In this document: piece after piece, positions 7,760-14,620 of the stretch | Numbering within the stretch: the stretch's first letter is position 1 | How the letters are laid out: each line of letters starts with the position of its first letter | Assembly: GCA_000233775.1 (NCBI GenBank) | Contig: CP003096.1 | Span: 310,001-374,000 of the forward strand | Source: Thermovirga lienii DSM 17291 | Lineage (GTDB): Bacteria > Synergistota > Synergistia > Synergistales > Thermovirgaceae | Length of the DNA stretch: 64,000 nucleotides | Direction: 5' to 3' | Notes under the pieces: model-generated | Databases searched by the model: none | Seen by the model: only the letters and a program-made list of their open reading frames with translations | Told to the model about the DNA's origin: nothing | Position numbers and translations under genes: made by a program

Positions 7760-7923
7760 TTTTGTGCTCCAAGAGTAGTCTATTCTTTGTTATCTGACAT
7801 TTGTTGATGTCCTTACGACGGTTTGTCGCTAAGCGCGTTGTTATGAGTGTAATATGTGTTGGAGAGTGGATAGTGGAGGCTTGTTTTAGGCTTCATGGAT
7901 TTTGAATGGTGGAGGTGATGGGG

Positions 7924-8757
7924 ATGGAAATAGCGATCGTGTATTTTTCTGGGACAGGCAACACTGCCCGGATTGCTGAGGAAATAGCAAAACGTCTAAG
8001 AGATAGAGGACATAGTGTTGAAACCCAATCTGTGGAGAAGGTGGACGTAGAATCTCTGAAGGGCAAGGTCATAGGCTTGGGTTTCCCTTCCTATGGGCTT
8101 TGCTATCCGTCCATAATGGAGCCCTTCCTGAGAAACTTGCCCAGAGCGGAAAAGCCAACTCCTGCTTTCATTTTCTCTACTCACGCCTGGTCCTCTGGCG
8201 ACAGCCTTGTGTGCGCCGCAGAGAAACTTCTGGAAAAGAACATAATGACCGTAGCAAGAGAGAGCTTCAAGGCTCCATCCAACGGGGCTGCTACGTTCTT
8301 TCATGAAAATCATCCGATGTACAAGATGATGGTCAAGTTTGAACCTAACCTGGGCCGCAAGCTGGATAAGTTTGCAGCTAGGGTGGACGAAGCCTTAAAG
8401 AGGTTCCAGGAAAGCCCCTTCACGGACATAGGCAAGAAGAAGTGGTATAACATATTTTTGGGCTTTTTTGCCCGTCACGTCATGGAAAGACGTCTTTACA
8501 GGGACTTTAAGGTGGACGAAAAACGCTGTGTTGGGTGTGGAAGGTGCGTCAAGCAGTGTCCCGATGGGAACCTGGAGATGAAGGATGGAAAAGCTAGATT
8601 TCTTAGGGGCAACAACTGCCTGAGATGTATGAGATGCATATCCATTTGCCCTGTGGATGCCATCCTCTTTGGTGAAAGAACCAGAGGAAAGGAGCGCTAC
8701 AAGGCCAAGCTTAGGGATAAGCTGTTGGAAGAGGCACTGGAAGAAAAAGAAGGGTAA
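7924..8757 (+). CDS. EFR1-type flavodoxin/ferredoxin fusion protein
   Basis: A soluble electron-transfer protein of about 277 aa. The N-terminus is a flavodoxin-like domain with the FMN phosphate loop SGTGNTARIAEE. The C-terminus carries two 4Fe-4S motifs, CVGCGRCVKQCP and CLRCMRCISICP, as in bacterial 2x[4Fe-4S] ferredoxins. Proteins with this order are called EFR1 family ferrodoxins; their partners are mostly unknown. ATG 7924 sits 7 bases after GGAGGT; upstream in-frame ATGs at 7906 and 7918 overlap or crowd that site. It has its own promoter and terminator. Confidence 0.85.
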   Translation: MEIAIVYFSGTGNTARIAEEIAKRLRDRGHSVETQSVEKVDVESLKGKVIGLGFPSYGLCYPSIMEPFLRNLPRAEKPTPAFIFSTHAWSSGDSLVCAAEKLLEKNIMTVARESFKAPSNGAATFFHENHPMYKMMVKFEPNLGRKLDKFAARVDEALKRFQESPFTDIGKKKWYNIFLGFFARHVMERRLYRDFKVDEKRCVGCGRCVKQCPDGNLEMKDGKARFLRGNNCLRCMRCISICPVDAILFGERTRGKERYKAKLRDKLLEEALEEKEG

Positions 8758-8771
8758 AGGTAGCCTTTTGA

Positions 8772-8799
8772 AAGCCCTCCTCAAAGGAGGGCTTTTTTC
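8772..8799 (+). terminator. terminator after the EFR1 gene
   Basis: A perfect 10-bp stem AAGCCCTCCT (8772-8781) with AGGAGGGCTT (8785-8794), a CAA loop, and a T run to 8798. Confidence 0.88.
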
Positions 8800-8810: not shown

Positions 8811-8839
8811 TTGACCGAGGTGGGAGTAAGTGGTATAAA
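8811..8839 (+). promoter_or_regulatory. strong promoter of the paaK leader transcript
   Basis: TTGACC (8811-8816), exactly 17 bases, then TATAAA (8834-8839). It lies just after the previous terminator and would start an RNA near 8846 that runs through the leader ORF and the attenuator hairpin into paaK. Confidence 0.75.
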
Positions 8840-8877
8840 ACTATACAATATTTATGGAAGCAGAAGGTGTATGTAGT

Positions 8878-8976
8878 ATGGCGAGAGCTCAAAAGCTACA
8901 AAGAACAATATATGTAGACGGCTTCTATTTTTATTACTTTACCGGCGTGGGACCCCCTCAGCGGTTCGACGCTTAG
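8878..8976 (+). CDS. Phe/Tyr-rich leader peptide of the paaK attenuator
   Basis: A 32-codon ORF starting about 32 bases after the predicted transcription start, with AGAAGGTG as ribosome site 8 bases before ATG 8878. The peptide contains six aromatic codons in a row, TTC TAT TTT TAT TAC TTT (8923-8940, FYFYYF), plus another Tyr at 8911 and a Phe at 8965, and stops at TAG 8974. It is followed by mutually exclusive hairpins and an intrinsic terminator. This is the layout of ribosome-mediated attenuators such as pheL; the peptide itself probably has no other function. An in-frame ATG at 8854 has no ribosome site. Confidence 0.75.
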   Translation: MARAQKLQRTIYVDGFYFYYFTGVGPPQRFDA

Positions 8977-9035
8977 GCGTCTTTGACCACTAGAGGCCGG
9001 GGTCCCCTTAACTAGATGGGGACCCCGGCCTTTTT
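8949..9035 (+). promoter_or_regulatory. transcription attenuator before paaK
   Basis: The terminator is a perfect 14-bp stem, AGGCCGGGGTCCCC (8994-9007) with GGGGACCCCGGCCT (9018-9031), then T to 9035. Its left arm can instead pair with GGGACCCC at 8949-8956, which lies inside the leader ORF 9 bases after the aromatic codons; that pairing is the antiterminator. A further hairpin (8956-8963 with 8971-8978) covers the leader stop codon. A ribosome stalled on the Phe/Tyr codons should leave 8949-8956 free to pair; one that reaches the stop should block it. The fold is read from the bases; the regulation is inferred. Confidence 0.72.
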
Positions 9036-9077
9036 ATTATGCCTTTATAGAAAAAATGTGAGAGGAGAGGAATGAAG

Positions 9078-10328
9078 ATGAGCGCAAGAAAGTCTAATTC
9101 ACGACTTGAGGACCTGCAAAGAACTGTCAAAAGAGTATGGGAGAACGTTCCTTTCTACCGGGCAAGGATGGAAGACTGGAACGTTACTCCTGATGATATA
9201 AAAAGCCTTGATGACCTTAAGAAACTTCCTTTCATGACCAAATCGGATCTGCGGGACAACTACCCGATGGGCCTTTTGGCGTGTCCGAAGGACGAGGTTG
9301 TAAGGGTGCATGCCTCTTCAGGGACAACCGGGAAACCTACAGTAGTGGCGTACACGGCAGGCGACATTGATTCCTGGACAGAATGTATGGCCAACTGTCT
9401 TAAAACGGCGGGAGTGAACGAGAAAGACGTCTTCCAGGTGATACTGGGATACGGACTTTTCACTGGCGCTTTGGGATTCCACTACGGGGCTGAAAGGTTG
9501 GGCGCCATGGTAATCCCCACGGGCGGAGGGTTCACGGGAAGGCAGTTGATGCTCATGGAGGACCTTGGTACCACGGTCTTCACCAGCACGCCTTCGTATG
9601 CATTGTACCTGGCAGAGGAGATCAGAAAACGGAATATAAGACACAAATTAAAGCTGCGCCTCGCCATATTAGGTGGAGAAGCATGGACCGAGGAGATGAG
9701 AAAAGAAATAGAGGAGGCCCTGGATGTTGTCGCTGTCGACTCCTACGGCCTTTCGGAAGTCGTAGGTCCTGGAGTGGCCATGGAGTGCCCCCAAAGAAAG
9801 GGACTTCACGGAAACTGGGATCATTTCATCTTCGAAGTGGTGGATCCAGCAACGGGACTTCCAGTTCCGGAGGGACAAGAAGGGGAGCTGGTAATAACCT
9901 CATTGAAGAAGGAGGCTATGCCAGTTATAAGGTACAGAACCAGGGATCTCACAAGGTTGATAAGAGGAACCTGTTCCTGTGGAAGGCAGGATGTAAGGAT
10001 AGACAGAGTAAAAGGTCGCTGCGACGACATGCTCATAATAAGAGGCGTGAACGTATTCCCGTCACAAGTCGAGGCAGCCCTTGCCCAGGTTCCGGAGCTT
10101 TCCCTTCATTATTTCTTGGAGGTCACCGAACGAAAGGGCCTCAAGGAGCTGTGCGTTGTGTGCGAGCTGAAAGACAGCCTTTCAGGAAAGGAATTGGAGG
10201 CCGTAGAGGGAAAAACATCCCGAGTGCTTCATGAAGTCTTGGGTATAAGGGTGGGGCTTAGGCTTGTGCAGCCAGGGACAGTGGAGCGCTCATCAGGCAA
10301 GGCGGCGAGGATAGTTAGGGTTAATTGA
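9078..10328 (+). CDS. paaK: phenylacetate-CoA ligase family (arylacetate-CoA ligase)
   Basis: An adenylate-forming enzyme that activates an aryl acetate (phenylacetate, hydroxyphenylacetate or indoleacetate) to its CoA ester with ATP. About 416 aa, normal for PaaK. Motifs: SSGTTGKPTVVAYT (ATP phosphate loop), GEAWTEEMR, DSYGLSEVVGPG, RYRTRDLTRLI, then the C-terminal domain with GRCDDMLIIRGVNVFPSQVE. ATG 9078 is 7 bases from GGAGAGG; ATG 9072 is too close. Known PaaK proteins are either catabolic or, in anaerobes with 2-oxoacid:ferredoxin oxidoreductases, allow reductive carboxylation of arylacetates to aromatic amino acids. The Phe/Tyr attenuator upstream favours the second role here. Confidence 0.88.
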   Translation: MSARKSNSRLEDLQRTVKRVWENVPFYRARMEDWNVTPDDIKSLDDLKKLPFMTKSDLRDNYPMGLLACPKDEVVRVHASSGTTGKPTVVAYTAGDIDSWTECMANCLKTAGVNEKDVFQVILGYGLFTGALGFHYGAERLGAMVIPTGGGFTGRQLMLMEDLGTTVFTSTPSYALYLAEEIRKRNIRHKLKLRLAILGGEAWTEEMRKEIEEALDVVAVDSYGLSEVVGPGVAMECPQRKGLHGNWDHFIFEVVDPATGLPVPEGQEGELVITSLKKEAMPVIRYRTRDLTRLIRGTCSCGRQDVRIDRVKGRCDDMLIIRGVNVFPSQVEAALAQVPELSLHYFLEVTERKGLKELCVVCELKDSLSGKELEAVEGKTSRVLHEVLGIRVGLRLVQPGTVERSSGKAARIVRVN

Positions 10329-12811: not shown

Positions 12812-13462
12812 TGTCAACGGACAGTAAAAATGTCACCTTTTAGATATAGTTTAAGTTTATAGATATTAGCCCTGCCCGATGTGCATTTTTGAAGTTTTTT
12901 GAAGCTTTTCTATAGCTCTTTACACATATGATTTTATGCAAAGAGTCTACTCCAGGACTCGCTCTGGACGCCTGCTCTTTATCTTCCGCCTTTACAGCGA
13001 AACGACTGTTAAACCTCCTTGAAGCCTTATGAGTGTGCTTGTTGGGTATTGAGGCCTCCTTGAGAATGCGACCTACTGTCTTGGCCGATACAAATATCCC
13101 ATCATGCTCCTTCATTAGCTCTGACATGTGCTGATAACTGGCTCCAGAGTATTTACCCACCGCAAAACCAACTATGGCCTCCTTTACCTCCTTCGGCGTA
13201 GCGTGTTTAGGCTTCCTACCCCTGTTACCATGCGCCAATGCCGCTATACCTCTTTCCTTCACACCTGCCTTCAGCCTCTTTATTTGGCGCTCACTCAACC
13301 CTAATACACACGACGCATCCTTCACCGTCACTACGCCCTCCAACAACCGCTCCATAACATATACACGCCTGGATTCCTTCTCGCTCAAATATACGTCACC
13401 CCTACTCATGGTGACATTTTCTCTGTCCACTTACAGGGTGACAATATCACTGTCCGGCGACA
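12812..13462 (-). mobile_element. internally deleted copy of the ISNCY-like element
   Basis: A 651-bp short form of the element at 17457-19000. Both ends are kept: left TGTCAACGGACAGT, right (read inward) TGTCGCCGGACAGT, about 26-bp imperfect inverted repeats ending in TGTCACC. Compared with the long copy it lacks one block near the left end and a second block that joins the N-terminal part of the transposase to a short C-terminal part. It keeps ends that a transposase could act on, so it may be a non-autonomous derivative. No target duplication is evident. Confidence 0.8.
12840..13430 (-). pseudogene. deleted transposase remnant
   Basis: A 196-codon open frame made of the first about 134 residues of the ISNCY-type transposase (helix-turn-helix with VLGLSERQIKRLKAG, then VGRILKEASIPNKHTHK) joined to a short C-terminal piece (FNSRFAVKAEDKEQ...). 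The whole catalytic core with the DDE residues is missing. It cannot be an active transposase, though it still has the DNA-binding part. Confidence 0.8.
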
Positions 13463-14620
13463 CGACATTTTGTAAGGGGCCACAAATTGCTTCCGTTTAA
13501 TTAGTTGAAGGAGATGGTGGGAGTCCCAGGAGATGTTTTGAGCTCCCACCATTTTTAGTATAAAGGTGTTTACTTTGTCCAAGAGTATAGGGGGTATGGA
13601 AGTAGCGGCTTTAGAACTGACTAGTGAGAGTTCAAATATTTTTTCCTTTGGAGTTTTCCCGTTCATATCTCTGCCTCCATGAGATCGTTTTTGATTGTAA
13701 TATTTTACCCAGCTTGCGGCAGAAGTCATAAAGACCTTTCGGGATGTTATGTGAGGTAGTGCAGGTATGTAGAATTCCTCATCATCGGTGCGATGACTTC
13801 GTTCCACAAAACCTTGGGCTTCTTTTTCTCCTTTTGGTATGGAGAGGAGAGTAACGCCTAAGGGTTCTAGGAATTTTTCCTGCAATATTTTTCTTTTTCT
13901 GCTTTCTTCAGATCCGCCGAATTCGCTCCCGTTGTCAGTTTGGAAGAACATTCTATGTCTGATGCCCAAAGCCCGCATGAGGAAGGCGATGTAAAGTATG
14001 AAGGAGAAGCCATTTGCGAAAGAGCATTCATCGGAGAAGCATAAGATTCTCATTCTTGTTTTGATATCGATAGCGGTAAATTGGTATTTGGGAAGCCTGT
14101 ATTTAAACAGGGCAGCATATGCTTTTGGTGGGAGAGTCTTTGCGTCTGCTATATGTTTTGAATCGATCTGGAAGTATTGTAGGGCTTCCCAGTGGTTTAG
14201 GTTGGCATAGTAGCGTTTATTTCCGTTTCTAGAACGTACTTTTTTAGTTTTAACGTTGTTTCTGCGTAAGATGTTTCTGATGGTGTAGGAAGATATATTC
14301 AGATTGAGGGTTCTTTTCAGCTCTCTTGCAAGTCTTCTAGGACCCATGTTGGTTTTCTGTTGAGTTTCAATAACCAAAGCTTCGATGTGAGGTTTAGTTC
14401 TTTTTGGATGAGGGGATCTGGGACCTTTTTTGTGCAATAATTCTTTGGCAGATAGGCCATCTTTTTTCCGTTTCATCAATGTTCTAACCCATCTTTCAGT
14501 AATTCCCATGATGTTAGCTATTTCTTTGGCTGTTTTACCTTTTTCTATCAAGTCGCATATAACTTCCATAGGGGCTTTGGGATTTCCTGATTCCTTTAGT
14601 CGCTGGTATAATGAGGTCAT
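13406..14620 (-). CDS. IS481-like transposase
   Basis: A 404-codon transposase with N-terminal helix-turn-helix (AKEIANIMGITERWVRTLMKR) and an rve integrase core: QIDSKHI (first Asp), FFQTDNGSEFGG (second Asp) and EKEAQGFVERSHRTDDE (Glu). The start ATG 14620 follows AAAGGAGGT. The frame has no stop inside the element: it runs past the end at 13471 into the neighbouring deleted IS and stops at 13406, so the last 20 or so residues come from flanking DNA. The core looks intact, so it may still be active. Confidence 0.85.
   Translation of the reverse strand: MTSLYQRLKESGNPKAPMEVICDLIEKGKTAKEIANIMGITERWVRTLMKRKKDGLSAKELLHKKGPRSPHPKRTKPHIEALVIETQQKTNMGPRRLARELKRTLNLNISSYTIRNILRRNNVKTKKVRSRNGNKRYYANLNHWEALQYFQIDSKHIADAKTLPPKAYAALFKYRLPKYQFTAIDIKTRMRILCFSDECSFANGFSFILYIAFLMRALGIRHRMFFQTDNGSEFGGSEESRKRKILQEKFLEPLGVTLLSIPKGEKEAQGFVERSHRTDDEEFYIPALPHITSRKVFMTSAASWVKYYNQKRSHGGRDMNGKTPKEKIFELSLVSSKAATSIPPILLDKVNTFILKMVGAQNISWDSHHLLQLIKRKQFVAPYKMSCRRTVILSPCKWTEKMSP

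Follow-up and report, generated by a model that had tools for sequence, protein, structure and literature searches.

The 64-kb stretch of Thermovirga lienii DNA analyzed here (the window) contains paaK, a gene for an AMP-forming arylacetate-CoA ligase. The gene upstream encodes an EFR1-type ferredoxin and has its own terminator near 8772-8797; the region between the two genes carries a promoter, a short ORF, and a terminator (Table 1). The ligase belongs to the PaaK family by sequence and domains, with matches to PDB entries 2y27, 2y4o, and 4r1l. It scores 503 bits, below the PaaK equivalog cut-off of 646 bits, so that PaaK-like is the safe name for it. An in-frame TGA flagged in some paaK matches turned out to be the terminal stop codon.

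Table 1 Features of the paaK leader region and its neighbors (positions in the window).
Feature	Position	Strand	Details
EFR1-type ferredoxin gene	7906-8757		upstream neighbor of the leader region
sigma-70-type promoter TTGACC-16-TATAAA	8812-8839	+	from sequence; -35 TTGACC 8812-8817, 16-bp spacer, -10 TATAAA 8834-8839
ribosome-binding site AGAAGGTG of the leader ORF	8862-8869	+	from sequence
32-codon leader peptide ORF MARAQKLQRTIYVDGFYFYYFTGVGPPQRFDA	8878-8976	+	ATG 8878, stop TAG 8974-8976
control codons Phe-Tyr-Phe-Tyr-Tyr-Phe	8923-8940	+	TTC TAT TTT TAT TAC TTT
antiterminator strand 2 (GGGACCCC + CTC)	8949-8959	+	pairs with 8993-9006
hairpin GACGC-TTAG-GCGTC, stop codon in loop	8968-8981	+	five pairs; kept in the window's class
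antiterminator strand 3, also part of terminator 5' arm	8993-9006	+
intrinsic terminator	8994-9035	+	14-bp stem 8994-9007/9018-9031, T run 9031-9035
paaK, AMP-forming arylacetate-CoA ligase, paralog a	9072-10328	+	start 9072 or 9078; Tyr-leader clade

An initial annotation of this DNA had proposed a near-consensus promoter, a ribosome site, a 32-codon ORF with six consecutive Phe/Tyr codons, an alternative pairing, and a 14-bp terminator just ahead of paaK, and we found each of these elements where it had been placed. The promoter is also kept in relatives: at Synergistota paaK loci, TTGAC and TATAAA or TATAAT precede the leader with similar spacing; a simple promoter scan misses TATAAA because it requires T as the final -10 base. 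Most relatives have a purine-rich site ahead of the leader start. The aromatic codon run is the only six-codon Phe/Tyr window on either strand of the 64 kb, compared with an average of 0.03 expected by chance in first-order Markov shuffles. The alternative pairing (8949-8956 with 8999-9006) comprises eight perfect pairs. The annotation had not included an extension of this antiterminator past a 3-nt bulge, in which CTC (8957-8959) pairs with GAG (8993-8995) to give GGGACCCC-CTC / GAG-GCC-GGGGTCCC, nor had it included the small hairpin around the stop codon, a possible pause hairpin. This 5-bp hairpin and a weak local hairpin over strand 2 are the only structures seen that might act as a 1:2 protector or pause hairpin. 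The 13-bp core of the terminator has a predicted energy of -33.4 kcal/mol, and the leader RNA folds more stably than 200 of 200 shuffles (z -4.3).

To model the switch, we folded the RNA with a masked ribosome footprint at successive codons, both for the window and for 29 leaders, one of which (G004a) had its terminator assigned by hand. In the window, the computed probability of the antiterminator is 0.81-0.93 while the A site is on any of aromatic codons one to five, falls to 0.10 on codon six, and is 0 beyond. Across the 29 leaders, Phe/Tyr codons peak just ahead of the computed ON/OFF switch point, reaching 20/29 (69%) at -3/-4, and they are absent 3-6 codons past it. The antiterminator also forms in folds of the untranslated window leader, with a probability of 0.93; it follows that there is no built-in 'off' state without translation. 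The full-length RNA at equilibrium always favors the terminator, from which we infer that the switch relies on the order of folding during transcription. The initial annotation had likened the layout to pheL-type attenuators, and the leader ORF, control codons, terminator, mutually exclusive antiterminator, and stall geometry of that design are all present in silico.

As judged from the sequence, the leader very probably switches paaK on when Phe or Tyr run short. RNA polymerase would transcribe the leader while a ribosome translates the leader peptide. A shortage of charged tRNA-Phe or tRNA-Tyr would stall the ribosome within the control codons, leaving strand 2 free to pair with strand 3; the antiterminator would then block the terminator, and paaK would be transcribed. 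A ribosome that reaches the stop codon would instead cover strand 2, allowing the terminator to form and turning paaK off. The product of the ligase would be phenylacetyl-CoA or its 4-hydroxy derivative, IOR would use reduced ferredoxin and CO2 to convert the arylacetyl-CoA to the arylpyruvate, and a transaminase would complete the route to Tyr or Phe.

The layout is widespread. It recurs at paaK in all nine of the closest Synergistota loci in our genome collection. We searched 188 Synergistota genomes and then inspected the DNA ahead of about 60 paaK genes; the leader and attenuator precede paaK in 30 genomes from 8 families, with upstream ORFs alike in length and position. This count includes G182, where the leader was found with a covariance model and paaK itself was not detected. 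Several paaK genes have no leader, including those in iorAB-paaK operons of one f6 genus; in the leaderless iorAB-paaK operons L211, L212, and L213 (f6 genus g21 and f9), the ligase is co-transcribed with IOR.

The initial annotation had suggested aligning the region upstream of paaK in relatives, and doing so revealed conserved aromatic runs and alternative stems, with stems re-paired and peptides recoded. The annotation had named a lack of such conservation in close relatives as grounds for refutation, and its reading withstands this test. In an alignment of the window's class, 93.7% of cells in the antiterminator are paired, compared with at most 58% when the partners are slid, and 93.3% are paired in the terminator, compared with at most 59% in slid controls. 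The flanking helix and the stop hairpin show changes on both sides. At 30 of 40 loci, the energy of the antiterminator is matched by at most 10 of 300 shuffles. In more distant classes the whole sequence has been rewritten and the antiterminator pairing retained: the sister paralog described below pairs GGGTCCC-GTTCGC / GCGAAC-TGA-GGGCCC, and G131 pairs CGGATCCCGGCTC with GTGAGGACGGGGTCCG. Between ten close pairs, 46 of 57 aromatic codons are kept versus 95 of 151 other leader codons, and we saw no Phe-Tyr exchange among the aromatic leader codons of these pairs.

Intergenic terminators are common, and this one could in principle be an ordinary terminator that follows a chance ORF. Conservation in 30 genomes, covariation, and the unique codon run refute this idea, to which we assign a negligible probability. 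It is also highly improbable that the RNA is a T-box or riboswitch with an incidental ORF: although there are conserved RNA elements around the terminator, the leader ORF with its start, ribosome site, and control codons is conserved and recoded, and the region has no Rfam match at the gathering score, including to T-box and Phe leader, with only chance matches at E values up to 5. Somewhat less far-fetched, yet still very unlikely, is a TnaC-like arrest peptide that senses a free aromatic amino acid or arylacetate in the exit tunnel. Pro-Pro can slow ribosomes, and a C-terminal GVGPP is kept in the window's class; however, GVGPP is no more than the translation of the conserved RNA strand GGCGTGGGACCCCCT, and it is altered where the RNA pairing alters (GSAGSP, GTDP, IGSP). 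What tracks the paralog is where the aromatic codons lie and which ones they are, rather than how the peptide ends.

The genome carries a second paaK (G000:C1:403605-404822, minus strand), 61% identical to the window copy. It has an attenuator of its own, whose leader, MHTPEVNINISSACSFFFFFTGAGPVRRTGAS, has a Phe-only code (FFFFF), whereas the code of the window copy is Tyr (+Phe). This split holds throughout the phylum. Window-type copies have at least two Tyr codons in the leader core (22/22), mostly YYY or YYF after some Phe, and the other copy has Phe leaders with little or no Tyr. In G009 and G010, the two leader RNAs are almost identical save for the control codons, which read TAT TAT TTT in one and TTC TTT TTT in the other. 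On a maximum-likelihood tree of PaaK, the Tyr/Phe label of the leader changes only twice; shuffled labels change 14.6 times on average, and none of 500 shuffles gave as few. Family f11 (G002, G004) duplicated paaK independently, and here too one copy has a Tyr-rich leader and the other a Phe-dominated leader, which retains one or two Tyr in its core.

The enzymes differ in parallel with their leaders. Nine residues cleanly separate Tyr-coded from Phe-coded PaaK (F121, I124, L125, A133, F170, T171, S172, A204, and S224 in the window protein). Among the 41 enzymes compared, residue 224 is Ser or Cys in 21/21 that are Tyr-coded and Ile or Val in 20/20 that are Phe-coded; in the f11 pair, it is Cys in the enzyme with the Tyr-rich leader and Ile in its Phe-type partner. 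Position 224 directly precedes the YGxxE motif, a spot which we take to line the aryl pocket, as in adenylating enzymes generally. In an alignment to Burkholderia PaaK1 (PDB 2y27; a numbering offset of -5 was inferred), L125 corresponds to Tyr136 and S224 to Ile236. A para-hydroxyl group would fit well in a pocket that is smaller and more polar. This codon-pocket match is support from the protein, separate from the RNA evidence. We had considered Ser239 of HCL (PMC8388817) as the equivalent of position 224 and rejected it, as it aligns with Gly201 of the window protein. The initial annotation had reasoned that cells need the ligase at low levels of charged tRNA-Phe or tRNA-Tyr; both the Phe-only leaders on the sister paralog and the matching change in the pocket support this idea.

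The same attenuator chassis is used elsewhere across the phylum, with control codons that are interchangeable. A covariance model of the leader (R1) has matches in 94 of the 188 Synergistota genomes, and the matches that we examined at sites other than paaK share this layout and differ in their codons. In the window's own genome, a Leu/Val/Ile leader precedes ilvN (G000:C1:151904-152042, minus strand, L145). Further leaders at genes other than paaK occur among L146-L183: Ile leaders precede a threonine dehydratase-like gene and an azlC gene, an Ile/Val leader precedes ilvC, a Met leader precedes a gene for an NlpA/MetQ-type lipoprotein, and a Phe/Trp/Tyr leader precedes a sodium:solute symporter gene. 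In G122, a Phe leader is found ahead of a gene resembling those for periplasmic binding proteins, about 4 kb upstream of aroC. The identity of the codons predicts the amino acid in every case in which the gene is understood, which supports the same reading of Tyr and Phe on paaK. Genes for transporter-like proteins of about 390 residues follow Phe/Tyr-rich or Tyr/Ile leaders in several genomes (L149, L152, L158, L172, and L173). One member of this membrane protein family had no Pfam or NCBIfam match; the family may be an aromatic amino acid carrier.

Outside Synergistota, we found no convincing aromatic attenuator-like leader at the paaK loci examined. Instead, two Firmicutes genomes have a T-box directly upstream of paaK (L017:2629-2883, 108 bits; L011:2564-2837, 101 bits), with the specifier UUC (Phe) in both. 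When the same specifier position was read in further T-boxes of these two genomes, the codons were those expected for ileS, metS, tyrS, thrS, and serA, and also for trpS, leuA, and ilvB if the spacing is one base shorter; the target genes were named by eye from translated starts. The sequence GAAGTTCTCC of one paaK T-box recurs before an aroF-like gene. Downstream of paaK in L017 comes a gene for a class I aminotransferase whose best NCBIfam match, an aromatic transaminase, is below the cut-off. Both PaaK proteins have Ile at the position of residue 224. A laxer search of nine Firmicutes paaK loci found no further T-box. Like the leader in the window, these T-boxes would sense the charging of a tRNA, here tRNA-Phe, directly before paaK; in contrast, they are an unrelated RNA that binds tRNA directly, without a leader peptide. 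They lend further support to a need for the ligase when charged tRNA is low.

IOR, the proposed next enzyme, can turn arylacetyl-CoA into arylpyruvate and can run in both directions. It is present in 167 of the 188 Synergistota genomes, including that of the window (G000:C1:559228-561051). In the 14 genomes examined, the IOR operons lack an aromatic leader, and IOR is not co-regulated with the ligase. This would fit a bidirectional enzyme, with control exerted at the ligase, the step that consumes ATP. A complete shikimate pathway is present in the window's genome as well, with aroF, aroA, aroE, aroC, and aroKB, plus tyrA, PDT, and trp genes (several of these gene names were assigned by eye); the arylacetate route may thus be dispensable in this organism, where it would run in parallel or serve salvage. 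Six other genomes that are about 99% complete (G030, G031, G032, G036, G170, and G171) have the paaK attenuator and no detected chorismate synthase (aroC) or prephenate dehydratase (PDT), again consistent with a ligase that is needed at low charged tRNA-Phe or tRNA-Tyr.

These observations bear on the alternative that we take most seriously, though we think it unlikely: that the attenuator senses Phe/Tyr charging and the ligase serves another purpose, such as scavenging toxic arylacetates, providing acyl-CoA for conjugation, or catabolism, which by coincidence is called for when aromatic amino acids are low. The shikimate route can supply Phe and Tyr in the window's genome, IOR lacks co-regulation, and the function of the ligase is read from its sequence, all of which leave room for such a role. 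However, a catabolic ligase would require the opposite sign of control; elsewhere the chassis precedes genes that make or transport the amino acid for which its codons stand; and amino acid supply is the better fit to the codon-to-pocket match, to the paaK Phe T-box that shares its specifier with the aroF-like gene of the same genomes, and to the paaK attenuators in the genomes without aroC and PDT. We therefore consider it highly likely that a ribosome-mediated transcription attenuator controls a ligase for Tyr and Phe supply from arylacetates; the co-transcriptional switching, a substrate that for the window enzyme would be mainly 4-hydroxyphenylacetate, and the biosynthetic direction are the parts of this reading that we infer. 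More broadly, our sequence analysis suggests an ability of these anaerobes to form Phe and Tyr from phenylacetate-type acids.

What is known of the conversion of arylacetates to aromatic amino acids by reductive carboxylation comes mostly from methanogens and from work on the rumen. PMC4162585 cites an aryl acid pathway in Methanococcus maripaludis (Porat et al.), and PMC7356843 cites work on rumen cultures in which Phe is made from phenylacetate. For Bacteroides, PMC13285125 argues that an AMP-forming arylacetate ligase beside IOR indicates biosynthesis and proposes that IOR runs in reverse. As far as these texts go, the systems of M. maripaludis and Bacteroides share with ours an AMP-forming ligase and a reversed IOR leading to aromatic amino acids; they differ in that no attenuation control is described there, whereas here there are two ligase paralogs with separate Tyr and Phe codes.

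Ribosome-mediated attenuation itself is an old class of mechanism. Like the pheL, trpL, and hisL attenuators of Proteobacteria and others, the paaK leader has a peptide with control codons, an antiterminator that shares the 5' arm of the terminator, and a stalling ribosome as the sensor. Unlike them, it stands before an arylacetate-CoA ligase rather than a shikimate-branch gene, has a small stop-codon hairpin instead of a clear 1:2 protector hairpin, places strand 2 inside the ORF, belongs to another phylum, and has no match to the Rfam Phe_leader. It also differs from E. coli trp in having no 'off' state when untranslated. Short upstream Phe/Tyr ORFs before a terminator or aromatic pathway genes have been reported: the uORFC-13-1 motif lies upstream of aroF (PMC8632094), and the intergenic survey of Stav et al. 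(2019; PMC6429828), which included Thermovirga lienii, ties two F/Y uORF candidates to 'shikimate metabolism genes', its main text giving no genome. Unlike our leader, these ORFs are described as linked to aroF or to 'shikimate metabolism genes'; neither the ligase nor phenylacetate is mentioned in the main text of PMC6429828, whose supplement may list the same leader without this interpretation. The initial annotation knew of no such attenuator on a PaaK gene, and our literature searches likewise turned up no paper linking a leader peptide to a phenylacetate-CoA ligase and none on attenuation of paaK. As far as we have found, what is new is the use of attenuators on arylacetate-CoA ligases, the Tyr/Phe split of the paralogs with their pocket residues, and the spread in Synergistota.

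Because IOR is bidirectional, it is difficult in other anaerobes to distinguish use of the arylacetate route from breakdown of Phe and Tyr. A starvation-sensing attenuator on the ligase, or a Phe T-box in Firmicutes, allows the direction of the pathway to be predicted from the sequence alone, a prediction that is directly testable. The leader codons also offer a code by which substrates could be assigned to PaaK paralogs. It seems probable to us, with more reserve than for the attenuator itself, that the control codons annotate the specificity of the enzymes: at least two paaK duplications would each have yielded one copy with Tyr codons and a polar pocket for 4-hydroxyphenylacetate and another with Phe codons and a hydrophobic pocket for phenylacetate, and in lineages without the shikimate pathway, reductive carboxylation under the control of this attenuator would be their sole route of synthesis to Phe and Tyr. 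Finally, ribosome-mediated attenuation emerges as a general mode of control of Synergistota amino acid genes, for which our literature searches found no description in this phylum.

In the strain of the window, the aroF-tyrA-aroA-aroE-aroC-aroKB cluster lies on a small contig of 31.9 kb (G000:C2:8744-15535, L218), between transposase-like genes. This contig is probably a plasmid, and the shikimate pathway of the strain may thus be plasmid-borne; a plasmid database search with the aro-bearing contig gave no match. The same integrase-type transposase sequence occurs in the window (13406-14620) and on the small contig (L218:16217-17446), a shared insertion element.
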